62,242 nucleotides of DNA from Gemmataceae bacterium. Lineage in GTDB: Bacteria; Planctomycetota; Planctomycetia; Gemmatales; Gemmataceae. Location: positions 1 to 62,242 of the forward strand of contig JANWYO010000233.1 in assembly GCA_025055215.1 (NCBI GenBank), read 5' to 3'. Position numbers and translations under genes: made by a program. The notes beneath the pieces are model-generated. The model had not been told where the DNA came from, made no database searches, and worked only from the letters and a program-made list of their open reading frames with translations. Shown one piece after another: positions 35,277 to 45,588 of this stretch (its first letter is position 1; each line of letters starts with the position of its first letter).

Positions 35277-36323
35277 TCAAAACTGCCCGTCGCGCACTTG
35301 GAAATGGGTCGGCTTGCCGAGCGTTTCCCCGCCCCGTTGCAGCCAGTCCGCGATCCAGAGCATCAGTTGCCCCACCGGCACCCGGGGGTAGCCGAAGAGC
35401 CGATGTGCCCGCTGTGCGTTGCTCAGGAGGGCATCGGCAGCTTCCTGGCCGCGGCAAACCACGGGCCGGCCCAGGAGCCGACCAAATTCCTCCGCCACCC
35501 GGCGAACGCTGAGCAGTTCCGGCCCGGCGATGTTCAAGACCAGCGGCGGCGACGCGAGGTGGTCGAAGGCCGCCAGGGCGGCCGCGTTGGCGTCGGCCTG
35601 CCAGATGGCGTTGAAGTGGCCCATGGTGACGTCGATCGGTTGGCCCGCAAGGACGCTTTGAGCCAGATCGACCAACACCCCGTAGCGCAGCTCCGTGGCA
35701 TAATTCAGCCGCAGGATCGCCAACGGAATTCCCAGTGTTCGGCTGAAGTGCTCGAAAATCCGCTCCCGGCCAACGCAGCTCTGGGCATAGTCGCCGAGTG
35801 GCTGCAACGGATCGTCTTCCCGCGAGCCGCCCCAGGACACCGGTGACAGGCCGTAGACATTTCCCGTGGAAAAGGCGACGATCCGGCTGTGGCGGAAGTG
35901 TTCGCAGACCATGCCGGGAAGATAGCAGTTCATGGCCCAGGTCCGGGCCTCCTGACCCGTGGAGCCGAACTTCATCCCGGTCATGAAGATGACGTTGGGG
36001 ACCACGGGCAGGGCGCGGAGCTGGCCGGGATCGAGAAGGTCGCAGCGAATGGTGTCCACACCCTGGGCCTGCAAGCGGCCTTCGAGACCGCCAGCCGAAA
36101 AGCGCGACACGCCGATGACCCGCCGGCGGACGCCGGCGGCGTCAGAGGCCCGACGCACCATGCGGGCCAGCGTCGGCCCCATCTTGCCACCAACCCCAAG
36201 CACCAGGACGTCGCCGGCCAGTCGGCCCATCGCCGCGATTGCCAGCTCATTCGGCTCGCTCAGCCGCTCTTCCAACTCGTCAACGTCCGCGATGCGGTCC
36301 GGGAGTAGCTTGGCTCGGACCAT
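35277..36323 (-). CDS. Extended SDR-like epimerase/dehydrogenase with altered active site
   Basis: A 348-residue Rossmann protein. The dinucleotide motif is VLVLGVGGKMGPTLARMV, followed by SRF as the beta-2 end and VIFMTGMKFG. The catalytic region FSTGNVYGLSPVSWGG supplies the Ser/Tyr-like stretch, but the YxxxK motif reads YAQSC (GDYAQSCVGRE), so the usual Lys is Cys. It may still bind NAD(P) and a sugar nucleotide. I use ATG 36323 (MVRAKLLPDR); the TTG at 36344 is weaker. It is the last gene of the long minus-strand run, and convergent with the cyclase gene 30 bases away. Confidence 0.8.
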   Translation of the reverse strand: MVRAKLLPDRIADVDELEERLSEPNELAIAAMGRLAGDVLVLGVGGKMGPTLARMVRRASDAAGVRRRVIGVSRFSAGGLEGRLQAQGVDTIRCDLLDPGQLRALPVVPNVIFMTGMKFGSTGQEARTWAMNCYLPGMVCEHFRHSRIVAFSTGNVYGLSPVSWGGSREDDPLQPLGDYAQSCVGRERIFEHFSRTLGIPLAILRLNYATELRYGVLVDLAQSVLAGQPIDVTMGHFNAIWQADANAAALAAFDHLASPPLVLNIAGPELLSVRRVAEEFGRLLGRPVVCRGQEAADALLSNAQRAHRLFGYPRVPVGQLMLWIADWLQRGGETLGKPTHFQVRDGQF

Positions 36324-36374
36324 GCCGACTTGTCTCCGCGTCAACCGGCTCGGTGCCGATGCCCGGCGGCGGGG

Positions 36375-38051
36375 TCAATACCCCGCCGCCTTGCCGGAAA
36401 TCCGGCGGTCGGCCACGCCGTGGTACATGCCCGTCTTCGGATCGACCCAAATCGAGTGGGCGTCGCCCTGGCGGATGCCCTCCACGGTGTGCCCCATCGC
36501 CCGCAGCTTGGCTACCGTGGCCGCATGGGTCCGAACCCCTTCAAAGCGAACCACATCCGGGAACCACTGGTGATGCAGCCGGGGCGCATCGACGGCCGAG
36601 CGAAGGTCCATGTCGTAGTCGAGCACGCTCACGCAGATGTTAAGCACGGTGTTGATGATCGTCCGGCTTCCCGGGCTGCCGGTGATCAGGTAGACCTTGC
36701 CGTTTTTGGCGACGATGGTCGGCGTCTGGGAGCTGAGCATGCGTTTGCCGGGGGCGATCTGGTTCGGCTCGGTGCCGATGACGCCGGCGCGGTTGGTGAC
36801 GCCGGGCTGGGTGTTGAAGTCGATCATTTCATCGTTGAGGAGGAAGCCGGCCCCTCGCACCACCACCCGCGAGCCGTAGCTCCGTTCCAGGGTGTAGGTA
36901 TTGGCCACGGCCATGCCGTCTTTGTCGATCACCGAGAAGTGCGTCGTGCTGTCGCCTTCGGGGGCCAGGGGAATGTCGGGGGCGAGGTCCTCACTCCGCG
37001 TGGCCCGAGACAGGTCGATCCCCTGAGCCAGCTTTCGGGCGTATTCCTTGCTCGTGAGGTGGTCTGGGATTTTGGTAAACGCGGGATCGCCCAGGTAGCG
37101 GGCGCGGTCGCAGTAGGCCCGGCGCATGGCTTCGACCATGACGTGGAGGGTCTCCGGCGACCAGCGGTCGTGTTTTTTCAGCTCGAAGTTCTCCAGGATG
37201 TTGAGCATCTGCACCAGGCAGATGCCCCCCGAACTGGGTGGTGGGGGCGCATAAATGTCATAGCCCCGGTAGGTGCCGTGGATTGGTTCCCGCACGTGGG
37301 CCTGGTAGCTGGCGAGGTCGGCCTTGGTGATCAGGCCGCCACCGGCTTTCATCTCTGCCACGATCTGGTCAGCGATCCGCCCGTGGTAAAAGGCGTCCGG
37401 CCCTTGCTCGGCGATCAGCCGCAGGGTGGCGGCCAGCTCCTTCTGCACCAGCCGATCGCCGGCCTGCCAGCGGTCGGCCCCACCGTTCTTGCCGAAGACC
37501 CGCCGGAGTTCGGGGAAATCGCTGGCAGCTGCCACGACGCTGTTGAGCGAAGTGGCCAACGGGTCGTCGAGCAGGAAGCCTTCGTCGGCCAAGCGGATGG
37601 CCGGCGCCAGCAGGTCTTTCCACGGCAGCTTGCCGAAGCGCTGATGCGCCAGGGCCAGGCCGCGCACTGTCCCTGGAACACCGACGGCCAAATGGCCGTA
37701 ACCGCTGTGGCCTTTGGCGAACATCGTCTTCGTGGCGGCCGCGGGGGCGGTTTCCCGGTATTCGACGACCACGGGTTTTGGGCCATTGGCGGGGAAGATG
37801 GTCATGAAGCCGCCGCCGCCAATGTTGCCGGCGGCTGGGTAGGTGACGGCCAAGGCGAAGGCCGTGGCGATGGCGGCGTCCACCGCGTTGCCGCCCCGTT
37901 TGAGGATTTCCAGGCCGGCCTCCGAGCCCGGGGCCGACACCGACACCACCAGCCCGTTCCGAACCTGGACCACATTGTCTCGGCCGTGGACGACCGGGGC
38001 GAAGGCGCCGACTAGGACCACCAGTCCCGCAGCGCAGAGGGAGGGTTTCAT
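36375..38051 (-). CDS. ggt: Gamma-glutamyltransferase (exported)
   Basis: A 558-residue Ntn-hydrolase that cleaves gamma-glutamyl peptides such as glutathione and transfers or hydrolyses the glutamyl group. It has a signal peptide (LCAAGLVVLVGAFAPVVHG). The N-terminal large-subunit start VSAPGSEAGLEILKRGGNAVDAA is typical, and the autoprocessing and nucleophilic Thr is in EGDSTTHFSVID. GGFMTIF and the substrate block MLSSQTPTIV are present. Self-cleavage before the Thr would give about 380- and 180-residue subunits. It starts 10 bases after the metF stop and is probably cotranscribed with it. Confidence 0.95.
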   Translation of the reverse strand: MKPSLCAAGLVVLVGAFAPVVHGRDNVVQVRNGLVVSVSAPGSEAGLEILKRGGNAVDAAIATAFALAVTYPAAGNIGGGGFMTIFPANGPKPVVVEYRETAPAAATKTMFAKGHSGYGHLAVGVPGTVRGLALAHQRFGKLPWKDLLAPAIRLADEGFLLDDPLATSLNSVVAAASDFPELRRVFGKNGGADRWQAGDRLVQKELAATLRLIAEQGPDAFYHGRIADQIVAEMKAGGGLITKADLASYQAHVREPIHGTYRGYDIYAPPPPSSGGICLVQMLNILENFELKKHDRWSPETLHVMVEAMRRAYCDRARYLGDPAFTKIPDHLTSKEYARKLAQGIDLSRATRSEDLAPDIPLAPEGDSTTHFSVIDKDGMAVANTYTLERSYGSRVVVRGAGFLLNDEMIDFNTQPGVTNRAGVIGTEPNQIAPGKRMLSSQTPTIVAKNGKVYLITGSPGSRTIINTVLNICVSVLDYDMDLRSAVDAPRLHHQWFPDVVRFEGVRTHAATVAKLRAMGHTVEGIRQGDAHSIWVDPKTGMYHGVADRRISGKAAGY

Positions 38052-38061
38052 GGCGGGAACC

Positions 38062-38973
38062 TCACGCAGTCATCGAGGGATTGGTGCCGAGCCCCATCGG
38101 CTTCATCAGGCCCAGATTGTGGAGGATTTCGGCCGCGCTCGGCACTCGGTTGAGGCAATAAATGTGGAACCCGGGGACTCCTTCATCCAGGAGGCGGCGA
38201 CACATCTCGGTACACACCTCGACGCCGATCCGGCGGACGGCCTCGTCGTCGTGGGCATGGGCGTCGATCCGCCGCCGCAGCTCGGGCGGCAAGCGGGCAC
38301 CGCACAGCGACGTGAAGCGGTGGATCTGCTCGGCGGACAGGAACGGCAGGATACCTGGCACGATGGGCACGGTGACGCCGCGGCGGTGGCGAAGGTAGTC
38401 CGTGAACTCGAGGAAGTCGTTCACGTCGTAGAACAGCTGAGTGATCAGGAACTCCGCCCCGGCCTCGACCTTGGCGGCCGTGCGGTCCCAGTCGAGGTAT
38501 TTGTCGGGGCATTCGGCGTGGCCTTCGGGATAGCCCGCCGCCCCAATGTGGAAGCAACCCCAGCTTTTGACGAAGCGGATCAGGTCGATGGCGTGGCTGA
38601 AGCCACCCTCGACCGCCTGGAAGGTCGCTTGGCCGCGGGGCGGGTCGCCGCGCAGGGCGAGGATGTTGCGGATGCCCAGGGCGGCCGCCTGGTCGAGGAC
38701 CGAGGCGAGCATCGTCCGCGTGGAGCCGACGCAAGTCAGGTGGGCCATCGACTCGATGCCGAAGTCACATTGCAACCGGTGGACCATCCGTAAGGTGCGG
38801 TCGCGGGTGCCGCCACCCGCGCCGTAGGTAACGGAGATGAAGCCCGGCCCGAACTGCTGCAAGGCGGGGACGACCTCGCGGAACAAGCTCGCCTCGGCCT
38901 CATCGGTCTTAGGCGGGAAGAACTCGAACGAAATGGTGAGCTCCGGCCGCGCATAAAGCTCGGGGATCGGCAC
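38062..38973 (-). CDS. metF: Methylenetetrahydrofolate reductase
   Basis: A 303-residue flavoprotein reducing 5,10-methylene-THF to 5-methyl-THF for methionine synthesis. Motifs are TISFEFFPPKTDEAE with the catalytic-region Glu, SVTYGAGGGTRDRT, NILALRGDPPRG and GAEFLITQLFYD. I chose the GTG at 38973 (protein V/MPIPELYARPE) because AGGAGG lies 8 bases before it. The ATG at 39057 would add 28 residues with no family match. Length then equals the usual 290-305. Confidence 0.95.
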   Translation of the reverse strand: MPIPELYARPELTISFEFFPPKTDEAEASLFREVVPALQQFGPGFISVTYGAGGGTRDRTLRMVHRLQCDFGIESMAHLTCVGSTRTMLASVLDQAAALGIRNILALRGDPPRGQATFQAVEGGFSHAIDLIRFVKSWGCFHIGAAGYPEGHAECPDKYLDWDRTAAKVEAGAEFLITQLFYDVNDFLEFTDYLRHRRGVTVPIVPGILPFLSAEQIHRFTSLCGARLPPELRRRIDAHAHDDEAVRRIGVEVCTEMCRRLLDEGVPGFHIYCLNRVPSAAEILHNLGLMKPMGLGTNPSMTA

Positions 38974-39081
38974 GCGCGGGACCTCCTGGAACAACAACTC
39001 GCCGGCCGCAGGGGAATTGTGCAGGAAGGGGGGCGATTTGCCAAGACGGCTTTGCATCCCGGACGTGTTCGCGCCGGCCGG

Positions 39082-39618
39082 TCAGGCGACGGAGTCGGCG
39101 GTGGCCTCGGCCTCGAAGCGGGCCGCTAATGCCAATTCTTCTTGCAACGACTCCCGGGCCGGGACCGTGGTCTGCTCCGGATTCAGGCAAAAGAGATCCC
39201 AGCATTCTCCTTCGTAGCCCTTCTGGCGGACGTACCATTCGCCCCGTTCCGACTTCGCCAGAGGAAAAAGGGCACAGAGGGCCGGCTTGTAGCGGAACTT
39301 GTCTCCTTCAGCGGCCCCGACCTTGTGCAGGACGCATCCCTGATTGAAGAAGACACACCACCCGTCTACGACCCGCAGCATCGGCAGGCCGTACTTCTGG
39401 CGACCACTGAGGAACCCCGCCTTTTCGATCAACTTCCGCGCCGCGGGCCGAAGTCCCGGCAGGAACTTGTCGAGGTTCTCCCGAATCCGTTGGCTTTCCT
39501 CGGGGTAGATGGGTGGGCGACCATTGCGACAACAGATGCCGTCGCAACCTCGGCCAAACGTGCATTCAAACCGAGCCTCGTCGAGGTTCGTCACCACGAT
39601 CGGCAAAGGAACACTCAT
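39082..39618 (-). CDS. Cys-rich DUF3109/YkgJ-like protein
   Basis: A 178-residue cytoplasmic protein with nine or so cysteines in CXnCXXXXC-type groups: FECTFGRGCDGICCRNG, GWCVFFNQGCVLHK, ALCALFPL and GECWDLFCLN. This arrangement resembles the DUF3109/YkgJ proteins, which are thought to bind an Fe-S cluster or zinc. No enzymatic role is known to me. The ATG is 30 bases after the ATP-grasp-GNAT stop, in the same minus-strand run as the aminomutase cluster. DUF3109 membership is from memory and is only likely. Confidence 0.72.
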   Translation of the reverse strand: MSVPLPIVVTNLDEARFECTFGRGCDGICCRNGRPPIYPEESQRIRENLDKFLPGLRPAARKLIEKAGFLSGRQKYGLPMLRVVDGWCVFFNQGCVLHKVGAAEGDKFRYKPALCALFPLAKSERGEWYVRQKGYEGECWDLFCLNPEQTTVPARESLQEELALAARFEAEATADSVA

Positions 39619-39648
39619 GGCAGGCCACCTTTCCGTCGTCGTCAGGGG

Positions 39649-41199
39649 CTAGAGGTACTTGGCGAAGGTCAACCGGGCATCACCGTCGCCGAAAAAGTCG
39701 GGCACGTCGCCGACAATGCGAAATCCTTGCCGCAGCAGAAACTGACGGAATTGGGCATGGGCCGAGTGATTGACGGTCTCGGCTATCAGGACGCGCCCCC
39801 CCGCCTTGCGGGCCCAATTCTCGCTGGCTTGCAGCAGGCGCCGCCCGATCCCCTTCCCCTGCTCGGGCGCGGCCACGGCGAACGAAAGGAGCTGATAGGC
39901 CACTCGGCTCCGCGGCGCCCGGCCGAGGCAGGCCCACGCCGCCACTTGACCCTGCCGCTCGGCCACAATCCCGTGGTAATCCCGATCCTGGTCTCGGCTT
40001 ACGGCGGCGTCGAAACTGCGGAGCGCCTCCGCCTGGTCGTCGGGGGGAAGGTCTTTCAGGCCATTCAAGAGATTGGTCAACGATTCCCGATCCCCCGGCT
40101 TGGCCGCGCGAACCTGCACCTCGCGGGCCGTGGTCCCCGCCGCGGTGGAGGGACTCCGACGGGTCAATCGGCCGACGGCCGACGAGGCGGACGGCGGCTT
40201 GCCTCCCCGCTTCAAGGCAGCTCGCACCAAGTCAACTGTAAAGGCCTCGTGCGTCAATCCCGCCGAGGTCAACGCTCCCGCCAACCCCGCGTTCGGGCTG
40301 AAACAGGGGTTGGGGTTTACCTCCAACACATACGCCTTCCCTGATGGCCGCACCCGGAAGTCGATCCGGGCATAGTCCCGGCAGCCCACCAGCTGGTAGG
40401 CCTGCCGGGCCAGGGTTTCGATGCGCTCGGCCAATTTGGGGCTCACGTCCGCCGGATAGCGCGGCGGGGTCGCTTCGTAATCCCGGCTCCCCGGCCGCCA
40501 TTTGGCATCGTAGGTGACGATGGGCCAATACCCAGGATCCTTCTCCACGAAAAGAATTTCCGATATCGGCAGCATGCGGAGATCGGGCGCCTCGATCAAG
40601 GCGACGCTGAATTCGCGGCCACGGATGAACTTTTCGACTAAGACGGGCGGCCCATACTGCTCCATCAGGTAAGCCACCCGCGCTTCGAGGCTCGGCTGGT
40701 CGGTGACGACGCTTCCCTGGTCGAGGCCGACGCTGGCGTCCTGCATGGCCGGCTTGACGATGACGGGCCACTCCAGGTCGCATGGCGGCACCGGCAACTG
40801 TTCGACGACGAAAAATTCCGGCGTGGGAATGCCGGCGCCTTGCAAAAGCTGTTTCGTCAGGTGCTTGTATCGGGCCAAGGTGAGGGTATGAAACGGGGAG
40901 CCGGTATACGGGATGCCGAGCCATTCGAGCAGGCCCGCCATGTAAGCCTCGGTATTGCCGTGGTCCGCCGTTCCTTCGAAGAGGTTGAAGACCACGTCCG
41001 GCTTCAGTTGCTTCAGCCCTTCGAGGACCGTGCCCGGGTCGTGGCTGGTGCCGAGGCGAACGACCTCAAAGCCGGCGCGGATCAGGGTCTTGCTGACCAC
41101 CTCGACCGTGTACAGGATGTCGTGTTCCGAGTCGGCGTCCGGGTGGTCAATGGGCAGGGTCGGTTCGTTGTGCAGGATGAGGACACGGTGCGTTTGCAT
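39649..41199 (-). CDS. ATP-grasp ligase (D-Ala-D-Ala ligase-like) fused to GNAT acetyltransferase
   Basis: A 516-residue two-domain protein. Residues 1-320 are an ATP-grasp enzyme: N-terminal VLILHNEPTLPIDHPDAD, DVVFNLFEGTADHGN, nucleotide-binding VIVKPAMQDASVGLD, VLVEKFIRGREFSVA, and the metal site ARIDFRVRP to VLEVNPNPCFSPNAGL. These enzymes join a carboxylate to an amine through an acyl phosphate. After a linker of about 50 residues rich in Ser/Arg, residues 370-516 form a GNAT domain with acetyl-CoA loop APEQGKGIGRRLL. The start overlaps the preceding ATP-grasp gene by 53 bases. Together with that gene and kamA it suggests ligation plus acylation of an amine-bearing amino acid. This is inferred from neighbours. 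Confidence 0.88.
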   Translation of the reverse strand: MQTHRVLILHNEPTLPIDHPDADSEHDILYTVEVVSKTLIRAGFEVVRLGTSHDPGTVLEGLKQLKPDVVFNLFEGTADHGNTEAYMAGLLEWLGIPYTGSPFHTLTLARYKHLTKQLLQGAGIPTPEFFVVEQLPVPPCDLEWPVIVKPAMQDASVGLDQGSVVTDQPSLEARVAYLMEQYGPPVLVEKFIRGREFSVALIEAPDLRMLPISEILFVEKDPGYWPIVTYDAKWRPGSRDYEATPPRYPADVSPKLAERIETLARQAYQLVGCRDYARIDFRVRPSGKAYVLEVNPNPCFSPNAGLAGALTSAGLTHEAFTVDLVRAALKRGGKPPSASSAVGRLTRRSPSTAAGTTAREVQVRAAKPGDRESLTNLLNGLKDLPPDDQAEALRSFDAAVSRDQDRDYHGIVAERQGQVAAWACLGRAPRSRVAYQLLSFAVAAPEQGKGIGRRLLQASENWARKAGGRVLIAETVNHSAHAQFRQFLLRQGFRIVGDVPDFFGDGDARLTFAKYL

Positions 41200-42235
41200 G
41201 GTGCGGAGCGGGGTTCGGAACAGCGGTTCGTTGCCGGTGGAGGCGCTCCCAGGCCGATCCTAAGATGGTTTCGATCAGCCGAGAGTAGCTCCAACCCAGC
41301 ATGTGGGCCATGATGACCAAGTCGCTCGTTTCGGGGGCCAGGCCCGGGAGCGGATTCAGTTCCAGAAAAACCGGGACGCCGTCGCGGAGGCGGAAGTCGA
41401 TGCGGGCGACATCGCGGCAGCCCAAAGCCTGGAACGCGACCAGGGCCGCCTTTTCGACCGCCTCGGCTGCCGCCGGTGAAAGCGGCGCGGGACACTCGTA
41501 GCGAACCCGCCGGCGAAAGTCCCGCTTGACTTCCAGGCTGTAGATGAATCGCTCGGTCGGCCGTTGCGGCACCACCCGCATGATGCCGAGCATCCGCGGC
41601 GGCTCGTTGCCCAGGACCCCCACGGTCAATTCATCGCCGGCGACGTATTCCTCGACGAGGACGGGCTGGCGATGGTCCCGGTGGACCGACTCAACGATGG
41701 TCGGCAATTCTTCCGGTCGGTCGATCAGGCAGTTTTGCCGAATTCCCTTGCTCGAGCCTTCCCAAGCAGGCTTCACCACCACGGGACAGGCCCAACGAGC
41801 CATCCTCCTCTGGCATTCTTCCAGCTGAGAGGGGCCGGGCGACGTCACGAGGACCGAGCGCGGCACGCTGACGCCGTGGCTGGCGACCAGGCGTTTGGCG
41901 CAGTCCTTGTCCAGTGTGGCGGCGAGGGTCAGCGGGTCCGAACCAGTGTAGGGAATGCCGAGCAGCTCCAAGACGGCTGGCACGCGGGCCTCGCGGCAGC
42001 GGCCCACCCCCTGGCCTTCGGCGAGGTTGAAGACGAGGTCCGGCGGCTCCACCAGGAGCCGCCGGAGCATCGCGGGGCCGTCGCCCAGGAGCACGGGCTC
42101 GTGCCCCAGGCTTCGCAGAACCTCGGCAATCGCCTCGATGGTGGCGGGGCTGTCAAATTCCTCCTGCCAGTCCTCCGGGGCATCGGCGGGAAGGACGCGG
42201 TCGTCTTTCAGGTCGAAACAGAGGCCAATGCGCAT
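41147..42235 (-). CDS. ATP-grasp ligase (D-Ala-D-Ala ligase-like)
   Basis: A 362-residue ATP-grasp protein. Blocks are DLVFNLAEGQGVGRCREAR, IPYTGSDPLTLAATLDKD, VVVKPAWEGSSKGIRQN, VLVEEYVAGDELTVGVLG, and DVARIDFRLRDGVPVFLELNPLPGL. It resembles D-alanine-D-alanine ligases but lacks exact Ddl N-terminal signatures, and genuine Ddl would normally sit with cell-wall genes. It is paired with a second ATP-grasp gene that overlaps its 3' end, and both follow the lysine aminomutase. The ATG at 42235 (MRIGLCFDLKDD) begins the domain; the 47 residues open upstream are not family-like. Substrate unknown. Confidence 0.88.
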   Translation of the reverse strand: MRIGLCFDLKDDRVLPADAPEDWQEEFDSPATIEAIAEVLRSLGHEPVLLGDGPAMLRRLLVEPPDLVFNLAEGQGVGRCREARVPAVLELLGIPYTGSDPLTLAATLDKDCAKRLVASHGVSVPRSVLVTSPGPSQLEECQRRMARWACPVVVKPAWEGSSKGIRQNCLIDRPEELPTIVESVHRDHRQPVLVEEYVAGDELTVGVLGNEPPRMLGIMRVVPQRPTERFIYSLEVKRDFRRRVRYECPAPLSPAAAEAVEKAALVAFQALGCRDVARIDFRLRDGVPVFLELNPLPGLAPETSDLVIMAHMLGWSYSRLIETILGSAWERLHRQRTAVPNPAPHHANAPCPHPAQRTDPAH

Positions 42236-42314
42236 GAATACCCGGTTGTTTCCTGAGCGTCCGGGACTTGGGGGCAACAGTAACCGACCCCGGCCCCGCA
42301 GCTGTCCGGGCGAC

Positions 42315-43748
42315 TCACCTGCGGCGCCGAACCACCGGCGCCCAATCGTCGAAGCTGGCGGTAGATTCGCTCTCACCGCAGCAGGCCGCGGATGAAAACT
42401 CCTTGTCGTTGGCGCCCGCTGCCGAGGCCAATACGCGGAGTGAACGCCGCGCCATCCGCTCCGTTCGCTCCGGCACCAAGGCGCTTTCGCTCCCTTGGAT
42501 CAGGGCGCTGACTCCTCGCGTCGGAGTGGGGCGAATGCTTGGCGGCTTGTCCTCCGCCTGGTAGCGGACCAGCATTCCTTCGTAGTTGCGCAGTACCACG
42601 GCGTCGTCCGACATCGACACCAGATAGTTGGGCATCAGTGGGATTTTGCCCCCGCCGTGCGGGCTGTCCACCACGTAGGTGGGCACGCCGAGGCCGGACA
42701 TGTGCCCCCGCAGCCCCTCCATGATTTCCAGCCCTTTCCAAATGGAGGTGCGGAAATGCCCGGCGCCGATAACGGGGTCGCAGTGGAAGATGTAGTAGGG
42801 CCGTACCTTGATCCGCAGCAGGCCCCGCATCAGCCGCTGCATGGTGGCCAGCGAATCGTTGACCCCTTTCAGCAGGACGGTGTGGTTGTTGACGGGCATG
42901 CCCGCCCGCAGCAGGGCTTGGCAGACCCGTGCCGCTTCCGGCGTGATCTCCCGCGGATGGTTGAAATGGGTTTGGATCCAGACCTTGCCGGCGGCGGCCA
43001 GCAGGTCGATCAACTCCTGGTCGAACAACTTCTGCGGCAGTGTCACCGGCACGCGGGTGCCGATGCGGATGACATCGACGTGTGGGATGGCTGCCAGATT
43101 GTCGAGGAAAAACTTCAACTTGGCCAACGGCAAGGTCAGGGGGTCGCCGCCGGAGAGCACCACGTCGCGGATTTCGGGGTGGCGGCGGATATAGTCGATC
43201 ATCCGGCGGTCGTTGCGGTTGACGGCGTCCCAGCCGCCGCGGACCATCGTCGCCCTCTTCCGAGTGCAGAAGCGGCAATACATGGAGCAGACATGGGTGC
43301 TGACCAGCAGGACCCGGTCCGGGTATCGATGCGTCAGCCCGGGGACGGGAGAGTCCTGGTCTTCCTCCAGCGGGTCTTCCAGCTCAAAGCCGGAAGGATT
43401 CTCGCGCTCCAGGGGGGAGGGGACCGATTGCAGGCGGATAGGATCGTTGGGATCGTCGGGGTTGATCAGGGAGAAGTAATACGGCGGGATGGCTAACTTG
43501 AAGTCCGCTTCCAGGCTGCCGATGGCTTCCAGTTCCTCGGGGGTGAAGGGGAGGAGGTGGCGAAGCTGCCGCACCGAGCGAATGGCATTTTGCGACTGCC
43601 ATCGCCAATCATTCCACTGGTGATCGGGAACTTCCCGCCAAAGCGGATGACGTCGCGGCTTACCGGGAGGCTCTTCTTCGTCGATCCCACTCGTCGTCGG
43701 GGGCACCCGCCGGTGGTTCAGCCCGGTGCGCTCGTCCGATTCACTCAT
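42315..43748 (-). CDS. kamA: KamA-family lysine 2,3-aminomutase (radical SAM, PLP)
   Basis: A 477-residue enzyme interconverting L-lysine and beta-lysine. The radical-SAM cysteines are C154, C158 and C161 (HVCSMYCRFCTRKR). PLP Lys is K368 in SPHGGGKIPLMPNY. The two acidic residues that recognise the lysine side chain in clostridial LAM are conserved as D324 (HCDPVIGAGHF) and D361 (VVDSPHGGG), favouring lysine over glutamate. The N terminus of about 35 residues and the C-terminal tail are variable. ATG 43748 has GGAGG 11 bases upstream; an ATG at 43775 is the alternative. It heads the minus-strand run and is divergent from an amino-acid permease. Confidence 0.93.
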   Translation of the reverse strand: MSESDERTGLNHRRVPPTTSGIDEEEPPGKPRRHPLWREVPDHQWNDWRWQSQNAIRSVRQLRHLLPFTPEELEAIGSLEADFKLAIPPYYFSLINPDDPNDPIRLQSVPSPLERENPSGFELEDPLEEDQDSPVPGLTHRYPDRVLLVSTHVCSMYCRFCTRKRATMVRGGWDAVNRNDRRMIDYIRRHPEIRDVVLSGGDPLTLPLAKLKFFLDNLAAIPHVDVIRIGTRVPVTLPQKLFDQELIDLLAAAGKVWIQTHFNHPREITPEAARVCQALLRAGMPVNNHTVLLKGVNDSLATMQRLMRGLLRIKVRPYYIFHCDPVIGAGHFRTSIWKGLEIMEGLRGHMSGLGVPTYVVDSPHGGGKIPLMPNYLVSMSDDAVVLRNYEGMLVRYQAEDKPPSIRPTPTRGVSALIQGSESALVPERTERMARRSLRVLASAAGANDKEFSSAACCGESESTASFDDWAPVVRRRR

Positions 43749-44085
43749 CGCGTCCGATGCCTCCAAGGGAATCATATTGCCCGGTACGTCCCGGCCCCCA
43801 TGTGTCGCCTTCTTTCGCGCTCAGCTGGGCCGATGGCGTACACTCACTAAACGCGGAATGCTACCTTGCAATTCCGAAATTACAAGGTCTTCCAGGTCTA
43901 AATTCGCCGTTTTTGGCGATTTTTTTGGTGGAATCCGCCCCGTTAGGGGGAAATCGCCGCGCCTGCCCCCGGGTCAAACCCTCGTTGACCCGCCAAGACC
44001 ACGCTCTACCGATGTGCTGACCACCGGTCCGAGATAGCGCTTGGGTGGTTTGCCCTTGGCCGTCGAGCCCCGTACACTGGCGGGC
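43749..44085. promoter_or_regulatory. Divergent promoter region between kamA and the amino-acid permease
   Basis: A 337-base gap with a locally AT-richer centre (43860-43930). On the minus strand TTGTAA (43880-43885) and TAGCAT (43858-43863) with a 16-base spacer form a possible sigma70 promoter for kamA. On the plus strand TCGCC-GTTTTT-GGCGA followed by seven T (43904-43926) looks like a small intrinsic terminator or attenuator ahead of the permease. Both are read by eye and unproven. Confidence 0.35.
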
Positions 44086-45588
44086 ATGGAGACACGCCAA
44101 TCGAGTCCCGCGCCGGCCCTGCTGCGAGTCCTGGGGCCGTGGACCGCGACCGCCATCGTCGTCGGCACCATCATCGGCTCGGGTATCTTCAAAAAGCCGC
44201 AAGATGTCGCCGACCGGGTCCCCTATTTCGGTCTGGCCATCGGCGTGTGGGTCGTGGGCGGCCTGCTGACACTCCTGGGTGCCCTGGCCCTCGGCGAGGT
44301 GGCCGTCCTCTTCCCCCGCGCTGGCGGTAACTACGTCTTCTTGCGCGAGGGCTTTGGCCGACGAACCGGCTTCCTTTGGGGGTGGGTCGAGTTCTGGATC
44401 ATTCGCGGCGCTTCCCTGGCCGCCTTGGCCACCATCTTTGCCGAGTCGCTCCGCGACGTCCTCGTGAATCCCGCCTTGCGGCGGTGGCTGGGTCTGCCCG
44501 TCGCGGGGAACGAATTCGGTTTCTGGCCGCTGCGGGGCCTGACCGTGGCCGTCCTCGTCGTCCTCGCCCTGGTCAACGTCCGCGGGGTCCGCTGGGGCGG
44601 CTATCTTCAGCTGGTCGTTACCGTGGTGAAAGTGGCGACACTTGTCGGCATCATGGTCCTGCCGTTCGCCGTCTGCTGGCTGGCGGCGCCGGTGGCGGCC
44701 GCCGCCCAGCCGACGACCGACCACTGGTCGCCGATCTGGCCCGAGGATTGGGCCGCCGTGTCTTGGGGCCAGGTTGGCGCCGCCCTGGTCGGCGTCTTGT
44801 TCGCCTACCACGGTTGGATGAACGTCGCCCCCGTGGCAGAGGAGGTCCGTTCCCCGCAGCGCAACCTCCCCCGGGCGCTGCTGCTCGGTTCCGGCATCGT
44901 CCTGGTGCTCTATGTCGGGGCCAACTTGGCTTACTACCTGGTGATTCCCCGCCCGGAAATGGCCATGATGAAGGAGTCGCCGGTCTCCACCGAATTCAGC
45001 CTGCGGCTGTTGGGCCCGATTGGAGCGGCGGTGGCCTCGGCCGCCGTCATGATGTCCACCTTCGGCGCCCTCAACGGCAACCTGCTAGTGGGGCCGCGGG
45101 TCATCTTTGCGATGGGCGACGACGGCTTGGCGCCGCGCTTTCTGGCGGCGATCCATGCCCGGTTTCACACCCCGTCGGTGGCCATTCTGGTGACGGCGAC
45201 TTGGTCGGCGATCCTGGTGCTGGCCGTGGCGCTGTTGACCGAATTGGGCGCCTTGAAGGCGGGGAAGAACCACTTCAACATCCTCACTGATTTCGCCATG
45301 TTCGGGGCGGTCTGCTTCGAGACCCTGGCCGTGGCGACGATCTTCGTCTTCCGCCGACGGCTGCCGCAGGTGCCGCGGCCATACCGCTGCCCCGGCTATC
45401 CTGTGGTCCCGTTCCTCTATGTGGTCGTCCTGGCGGCGGTACTCGTCAACATGTTCTGGCAGCAGACACACGAGGCCCTGATCGGGCTGGGGTTCATCGC
45501 CTTGGGGGCCGTCGTGTATCCCCTGATGAACTCACCTCGGATCGCGGCGGCAGACCGCAGTCGTCCCATGGGGTTTCCTGCCGGTTGA
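44086..45588 (+). CDS. APC-family amino-acid permease
   Basis: A 500-residue inner-membrane transporter with about 12 hydrophobic segments. The first unwound helix carries the APC substrate motif VGTIIGSGIFKKP. Other family features are LGEVAVLFPRAGGNYVFLREGFG and FAYHGWMNVAPVAEEVRSPQRNLPRA. It most resembles the LAT/YkbA-type branch. The substrate cannot be assigned; its divergence from kamA makes an amino acid such as lysine worth considering. The start at 44086 puts a short cytoplasmic N terminus before helix 1; the upstream TTG at 44041 is unlikely. It converges with the dehydrogenase gene only 5 bases away. Confidence 0.92.
   Translation: METRQSSPAPALLRVLGPWTATAIVVGTIIGSGIFKKPQDVADRVPYFGLAIGVWVVGGLLTLLGALALGEVAVLFPRAGGNYVFLREGFGRRTGFLWGWVEFWIIRGASLAALATIFAESLRDVLVNPALRRWLGLPVAGNEFGFWPLRGLTVAVLVVLALVNVRGVRWGGYLQLVVTVVKVATLVGIMVLPFAVCWLAAPVAAAAQPTTDHWSPIWPEDWAAVSWGQVGAALVGVLFAYHGWMNVAPVAEEVRSPQRNLPRALLLGSGIVLVLYVGANLAYYLVIPRPEMAMMKESPVSTEFSLRLLGPIGAAVASAAVMMSTFGALNGNLLVGPRVIFAMGDDGLAPRFLAAIHARFHTPSVAILVTATWSAILVLAVALLTELGALKAGKNHFNILTDFAMFGAVCFETLAVATIFVFRRRLPQVPRPYRCPGYPVVPFLYVVVLAAVLVNMFWQQTHEALIGLGFIALGAVVYPLMNSPRIAAADRSRPMGFPAG

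Follow-up and report, generated by a model that had tools for sequence, protein, structure and literature searches.

A conserved gene module of a lysine-type aminomutase and two Ddl-fold ATP-grasp ligases, with a proposed role in beta-lysine peptide synthesis

What might a lysine 2,3-aminomutase family enzyme and two ATP-grasp ligases make together, and do their genes adjoin by more than chance? The question is raised by a 62,242-nucleotide stretch from a Gemmataceae bacterium (contig JANWYO010000233.1), hereafter the window, in which kamA is followed by a ligase gene (AG1) and by a gene that fuses a second ligase domain (AG2) to a GNAT acetyltransferase domain (Table 1).

Layout and conservation of the module

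The co-directional layout described in a first-pass annotation of this DNA was reproduced exactly: all three genes lie on the minus strand, with a 79-base gap and then a 53-base overlap, and the divergent APC permease gene that it reported is present. The start assigned to KamA in that annotation, an inner ATG at 43748, is an alternative to the one given here. The three genes open a run of seven one-strand genes (35277-43775, minus strand), which continues with DUF3109, MTHFR, gamma-glutamyltranspeptidase (GGT) and epimerase-like genes, with gaps of 10-32 bases from AG2-GNAT onward. Of these four downstream genes, DUF3109 alone is seen again beside the module elsewhere (L035, L036, L063, L071 and L110). 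MTHFR and GGT were rejected as conserved partners, and so was the APC permease, except that among the relatives it was found divergent from KamA in one near relative, L063. When the window region and ten module loci were screened against Rfam, no riboswitch or other RNA turned up at the module, osmotic-stress RNA elements included.

Table 1. Features of the module and its immediate neighbours in the window
Feature	Position	Strand	Description
KamA	42315-43775	-	lysine 2,3-aminomutase family (radical SAM, PLP); 486 aa
AG1	41147-42235	-	Ddl-fold ATP-grasp ligase; ATG start, 362 aa, PF07478
AG2-GNAT	39649-41199	-	fusion protein; 516 aa
AG2	40195-41199	-	second Ddl-fold ATP-grasp domain; fusion residues 1-335, PF07478
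GNAT	39649-40128	-	acetyltransferase domain fused C-terminal to AG2; PF00583
DUF3109	39082-39618	-	cysteine-rich protein; PF11307, recurrent accessory gene
APC permease	44092-45588	+	amino-acid permease, possible transporter; divergent from kamA

Co-occurrence was assessed in 149 planctomycete genomes, the E-value limits being 1e-45 for AG1 and 1e-80 for LAM-type KamA. AG1 was found in 23 of the 149, spanning about 20 families. LAM-type KamA was present in 21 of these 23 AG1-positive genomes versus 7 of the 126 AG1-negative ones (Fisher p 1.4e-17 with kinship ignored, a value that is too small because the genomes are not independent). One exception (G004) has its KamA cut by a contig end, and another (G145) has a fragmented AG pair and was counted as AG1-negative; in G087 and G105, KamA lies far from the ligase pair yet is present in the genome.

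Wider sampling gave 80 loci in named genomes of several phyla, drawn from at least 554 candidates. A same-strand KamA adjoins AG1 in 50 of the 80, at a median distance of 38 bases; AG2 occurs in 44, GNAT in 32 and all four parts in 27. The hosts include Gemmataceae, Isosphaera and other Planctomycetota, Dehalococcoidia, Acidobacteriota, Omnitrophota, Riflebacteria, Lindowbacteria, Myxococcota and Bacillota, and loci with KamA beside AG1 are found in Planctomycetota, Chloroflexota, Acidobacteriota, Omnitrophota, Riflebacteria and others. Two gene orders occur, KamA-AG1-AG2-GNAT and AG1-AG2-GNAT-KamA. Because the same genes are linked across many phyla, the arrangement is a conserved module and not a matter of chance, and the co-occurrence in other genomes on which the first-pass annotation had staked its reading is borne out. 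Flanking genes mostly vary between loci, which speaks for a self-contained module.

Its composition varies. AG2 is replaced by another ATP-grasp protein in some Omnitrophota and Margulisiibacteriota loci, and myxococcal loci carry two tandem AG1-type ligases without an adjacent KamA, which lies elsewhere in the genome where tested. A RimK-like ATP-grasp gene adjoins the module in L098, L104, L107 and L112, occupying the place of AG2 in the last three. KamA proteins from AG1-bearing Firmicutes genomes were rejected as module evidence because their context points to lysine fermentation, at least in L156, where the neighbours are lysine 5,6-aminomutase and 3,5-diaminohexanoate dehydrogenase. A search of plasmids with AG1 returned only distant rhizobial ATP-grasp genes, and no aminomutase was annotated near these in the two regions opened.

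The aminomutase and the two ligases

KamA matches the LAM_C (PF12544), radical SAM and broad KamA-family (TIGR00238) models above cut-off, the last at 318 bits against a cut-off of 199, and its closest solved structure is a lysine 2,3-aminomutase (PDB 2a5h, E 5.5e-133). Among curated models it fits AblA better than the glutamate, arginine or EF-P aminomutases; it scores 467.5 bits on the NCBI AblA model TIGR03820, below the cut-off of 525, and 367 bits on the arginine aminomutase model, far below the cut-off of 600. By these scores, the protein is classed as a lysine-type member of the KamA family and not as AblA. The iron-sulfur cysteines (Cys125, Cys129 and Cys132), PLP Lys337 and Asp293/Asp330 (Clostridium LAM numbering) are all present in it and invariant in 68 of 68 module-linked KamA proteins, so that the intact lysine-recognition and PLP residues noted at first pass prove to be general to the module. 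The two aspartates are likewise kept in KamA proteins without a link to the module, and hence they point to a lysine-type substrate and no further; by themselves they do not exclude arginine. KamA is predicted to make beta-lysine. It is the sole KamA of the window's genome. Module KamA proteins fall into more than one clade of the tree, for which reason we claim no module-specific subfamily. A Myxococcus genome (L154, 3689-6204) carries a tandem pair of KamA paralogues, one of them divergent.

AG1 and AG2 sequences fall into two clearly distinct clades, with one odd locus (L039) apart, and AG1 is the better conserved. Their nearest solved relatives are D-Ala-D-Ala ligases (Ddl). The AlphaFold model of AG1 (mean pLDDT 91) best matches a DdlB in the PDB (Z 32.8, 2.5 A over 296 residues), and that of AG2 (mean pLDDT 87) also matches DdlB (Z 33.2, 2.3 A over 295 residues); the linker to GNAT, residues 334-357, is modelled with low confidence. 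The two ligases are old paralogue clades with the Ddl fold, and the fold searches add nothing beyond that fold.

Residues were mapped on E. coli DdlB, using a reference taken from a solved-structure match except for its first 22 residues, in 69 AG1 and 49 AG2 copies linked to KamA. Few or no copies of either ligase depart from the ATP- and Mg-binding residues K97, K144, R255, D257, E270 and N272. The pocket differs. His63 is replaced by Glu in 69 of 69 AG1 and 48 of 49 AG2 sequences, and Met259 by Arg in nearly all of both; Tyr216 is Arg in 54 of the 69 AG1 and Trp in every AG2. Ser150, kept in 64 of the 69 AG1, gives way to Ala or Gly in AG2, where Asp also replaces Gly149 in 46 of the 49 sequences. 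Of the Glu15-Ser150-Tyr216 triad, AG1 mostly keeps Glu and Ser and mostly has Arg for Tyr, and AG2 keeps none of the three residues (49 sequences). Judged from these alignments, both ligases combine an intact ATP/Mg part with altered substrate pockets. A glutamate close to the site at which Ddl binds the amino group would suit a cationic substrate.

Genome context bears on the same point. AG1 and AG2 score far below the curated Ddl cut-off (163 versus 243 bits) and are the only clear Ddl-like matches in the window's genome, where other PF07478 matches reach at most 44 bits and resemble other ATP-grasp enzymes. MurF is present in 138 of the 149 planctomycetes; none was found in the window's genome (G000), its near relatives G161, G162 and G164, or the Dehalococcoidia tested. 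Nor was another Ddl found besides AG1 and AG2 in the window's genome, its near relatives or most of the Dehalococcoidia tested, the exceptions being another Ddl-like protein in G169 (Dehalococcoidia) and further Ddl-family matches in G164. Since these genomes lack MurF and, for the most part, any other Ddl, AG1 and AG2 are not housekeeping Ddl enzymes. Assembly incompleteness might hide MurF or Ddl in one genome and is not likely to do so in all; the window bacterium seems, on its gene content, to be without the ordinary cell-wall pathway. The missing MurF in G000 and its three relatives also bears on the debate about peptidoglycan in Gemmata-like bacteria.

Proposed pathway and competing explanations

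We propose, at roughly even chances, that the module carries out NRPS-independent synthesis of a short beta-lysine peptide that is often N-acetylated. KamA would turn L-lysine into beta-lysine by a C2-to-C3 shift of the amino group; AG1 and AG2 would each use ATP to convert a carboxylate into an acyl phosphate and couple it to an amine, thereby building beta-lysine into a short di- or tripeptide; and GNAT, where present, would acetylate a free amino group of the peptide. That the ligases use beta-lysine is inferred, as are the sequence of the reactions, the amino acids joined to it, the acetylation of the product and the product's role, which is most likely that of a compatible solute, or else of a secreted or signalling metabolite. 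More broadly, the module could yield a peptide or an osmolyte, or could modify something larger.

The best solved relative of the GNAT domain is a putative D-alanine N-acetyltransferase (PDB 2r7h). Against the AblB model TIGR03827 it scores 11.8 bits, with a cut-off of 205, and a profile search with positive controls found no AblB above cut-off in 28 module genomes. Given the wide co-occurrence of the genes and the distance of the ATP-grasp proteins from ordinary Ddl, the pathway suggested at first pass is well supported in its two ligases and lysine-type aminomutase, but not in an AblB-type reading of the GNAT. In the nearest relatives (L063-L066, L071, L072 and L076) no GNAT was found next to AG2, so acetylation is an accessory step.

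Peptide-cutting and deacetylating neighbours suit a small acetylated peptide, each link being limited to some lineages. S58 peptidases related to DmpA and to the beta-peptidyl aminopeptidase BapA follow the AG1 pair in ten myxococcal loci (L115, L118, L123, L125, L128-L132 and L134); S66 peptidases and TldD/TldE-like proteins adjoin KamA-AG1 in Omnitrophota and Margulisiibacteriota. These peptidases belong to unrelated folds. In L037 an HDAC-family deacetylase separates KamA from AG1, and in four loci of Dehalococcoidales or Dehalococcoidia such an enzyme comes after GNAT. In a Dehalococcoidales locus (L086, 5225-7033), acetyltransferase and deacetylase are joined in one GNAT-HDAC fusion protein adjoining the module.

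Several findings speak against the peptide proposal: the missing GNAT in close relatives, the replacement of AG2 in some loci, the myxococcal pairs of AG1-type ligases with no adjacent KamA, the retention of Asp293/Asp330 in KamA proteins outside the module, the lack of any osmotic-stress RNA element in the loci screened, and the confinement of peptidase and deacetylase links to limited lineages. More tentatively still, beta-lysyl peptides may constitute an undescribed family that serves osmotic or envelope stability, with dedicated ligases and acetylases to make them inside the cell and deacetylases and peptidases to recycle them there; the carriers would possibly be many uncultured bacteria, notably those without the MurF pathway (Gemmatales, Dehalococcoidia).

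Alternatively, the ligases may attach beta-lysine or its peptide to a macromolecule such as a protein, a tRNA, a lipid or an envelope polymer. Ddl-fold ATP-grasp enzymes can use varied acceptors, and in lineages where the module is common, namely Gemmataceae and Dehalococcoidia, the genomes tested are without MurF, an alternative envelope polymer being conceivable there. We nevertheless consider this rather unlikely: the genes conserved with the module include none for a carrier protein, a glycosyltransferase, a flippase or lipids, and the neighbouring peptidases and deacetylase are consistent with a small peptide.

A defensive or toxic, antibiotic-like beta-lysine amide, acetylated for self-protection, is a slimmer prospect. 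Beta-lysine and beta-arginine are components of known antibiotics, GNATs acetylate streptothricin for self-protection, and the GNAT domain is weakly similar to streptothricin acetyltransferase models; however, the module spreads in a vertical-looking manner through whole lineages, Dehalococcoidia for example, and exporter or tailoring genes are not conserved with it.

We also doubt that the module makes an AblA/AblB-like compatible solute, with GNAT merely acetylating beta-lysine and the ligases serving different small molecules. The pairing of KamA with GNAT resembles AblA/AblB, and riboswitches for Na+ and c-di-AMP can control genes for lysine 2,3-aminomutase (PMC9337991). Against this stand the distance of the GNAT from AblB and the lack of AblB in the 28 module genomes searched, the absence of GNAT in close relatives, and the position of the ligases as the most constant partners.

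It is very unlikely that KamA feeds beta-lysine to EF-P, in the role of EpmB, with the ligases as unrelated neighbours. GenX/EpmA-like proteins exceed the curated cut-off in G019, G167, G171 and G172, and the module KamA is the only KamA in G172 and the only full one in G167. The window's genome, by contrast, has no GenX above cut-off, its matches being frames of 629-640 aa that resemble LysRS and another aminoacyl-tRNA synthetase; KamA scores 231 bits on the EpmB model (cut-off 369), and the co-occurrence of KamA with AG1 would go unexplained. Least likely of all, to the point of near-dismissal, is the outcome the first-pass annotation had named as fatal to its own reading, namely that AG1 and AG2 are ordinary D-Ala-D-Ala ligases standing beside kamA by chance: they share the Ddl fold and match the family, but they score below the curated cut-off, have a changed triad and occur where MurF and other Ddl are missing, and other module genomes such as G019, G037 and G119 have a separate, stronger Ddl-family protein.

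Significance and comparison with known systems

Automatic annotation would name AG1 and AG2 D-Ala-D-Ala ligases. Because they are the sole Ddl-like proteins in several genomes without MurF, such a name misleads about the cell wall. The conservation of a lysine aminomutase-ligase-ligase set across many phyla hints at a small molecule of wide occurrence, for which no description was found, and the module is small enough for direct expression and testing. Our literature search found no paper on the module, which the ATP-grasp survey of Iyer et al. 2009 may list.

AblA/AblB, in which an aminomutase and a beta-lysine N-acetyltransferase make the osmolyte N-epsilon-acetyl-beta-lysine, resembles the module in clustering a same-family aminomutase with a GNAT; here, however, the GNAT is dispensable and not of the AblB family, and the constant partners are ATP-grasp ligases. 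With Ddl (PF07478), AG1 and AG2 share the fold and the ATP and Mg residues, but they have a changed pocket triad, score below the curated cut-offs and occur without MurF. The N-acetylglutaminylglutamine synthetase system joins a GNAT to an ATP-grasp ligase and makes an acetylated dipeptide solute; it is not known to include an aminomutase, and its domain order and ligase family probably differ. In the blasticidin S pathway, an arginine 2,3-aminomutase of the KamA family supplies an amide-linked beta-amino acid, but the acceptor there is a nucleoside, and the window KamA falls far short of the arginine aminomutase cut-off. The gene neighbourhoods of ATP-grasp amidoligases reportedly predicted by Iyer et al. 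2009 (Mol Biosyst) are similar in joining peptidases and enzymes that modify amino acids to peptide ligases. The known kind to which the module would belong is NRPS-independent ATP-grasp peptide synthesis, fed in this case by an aminomutase.
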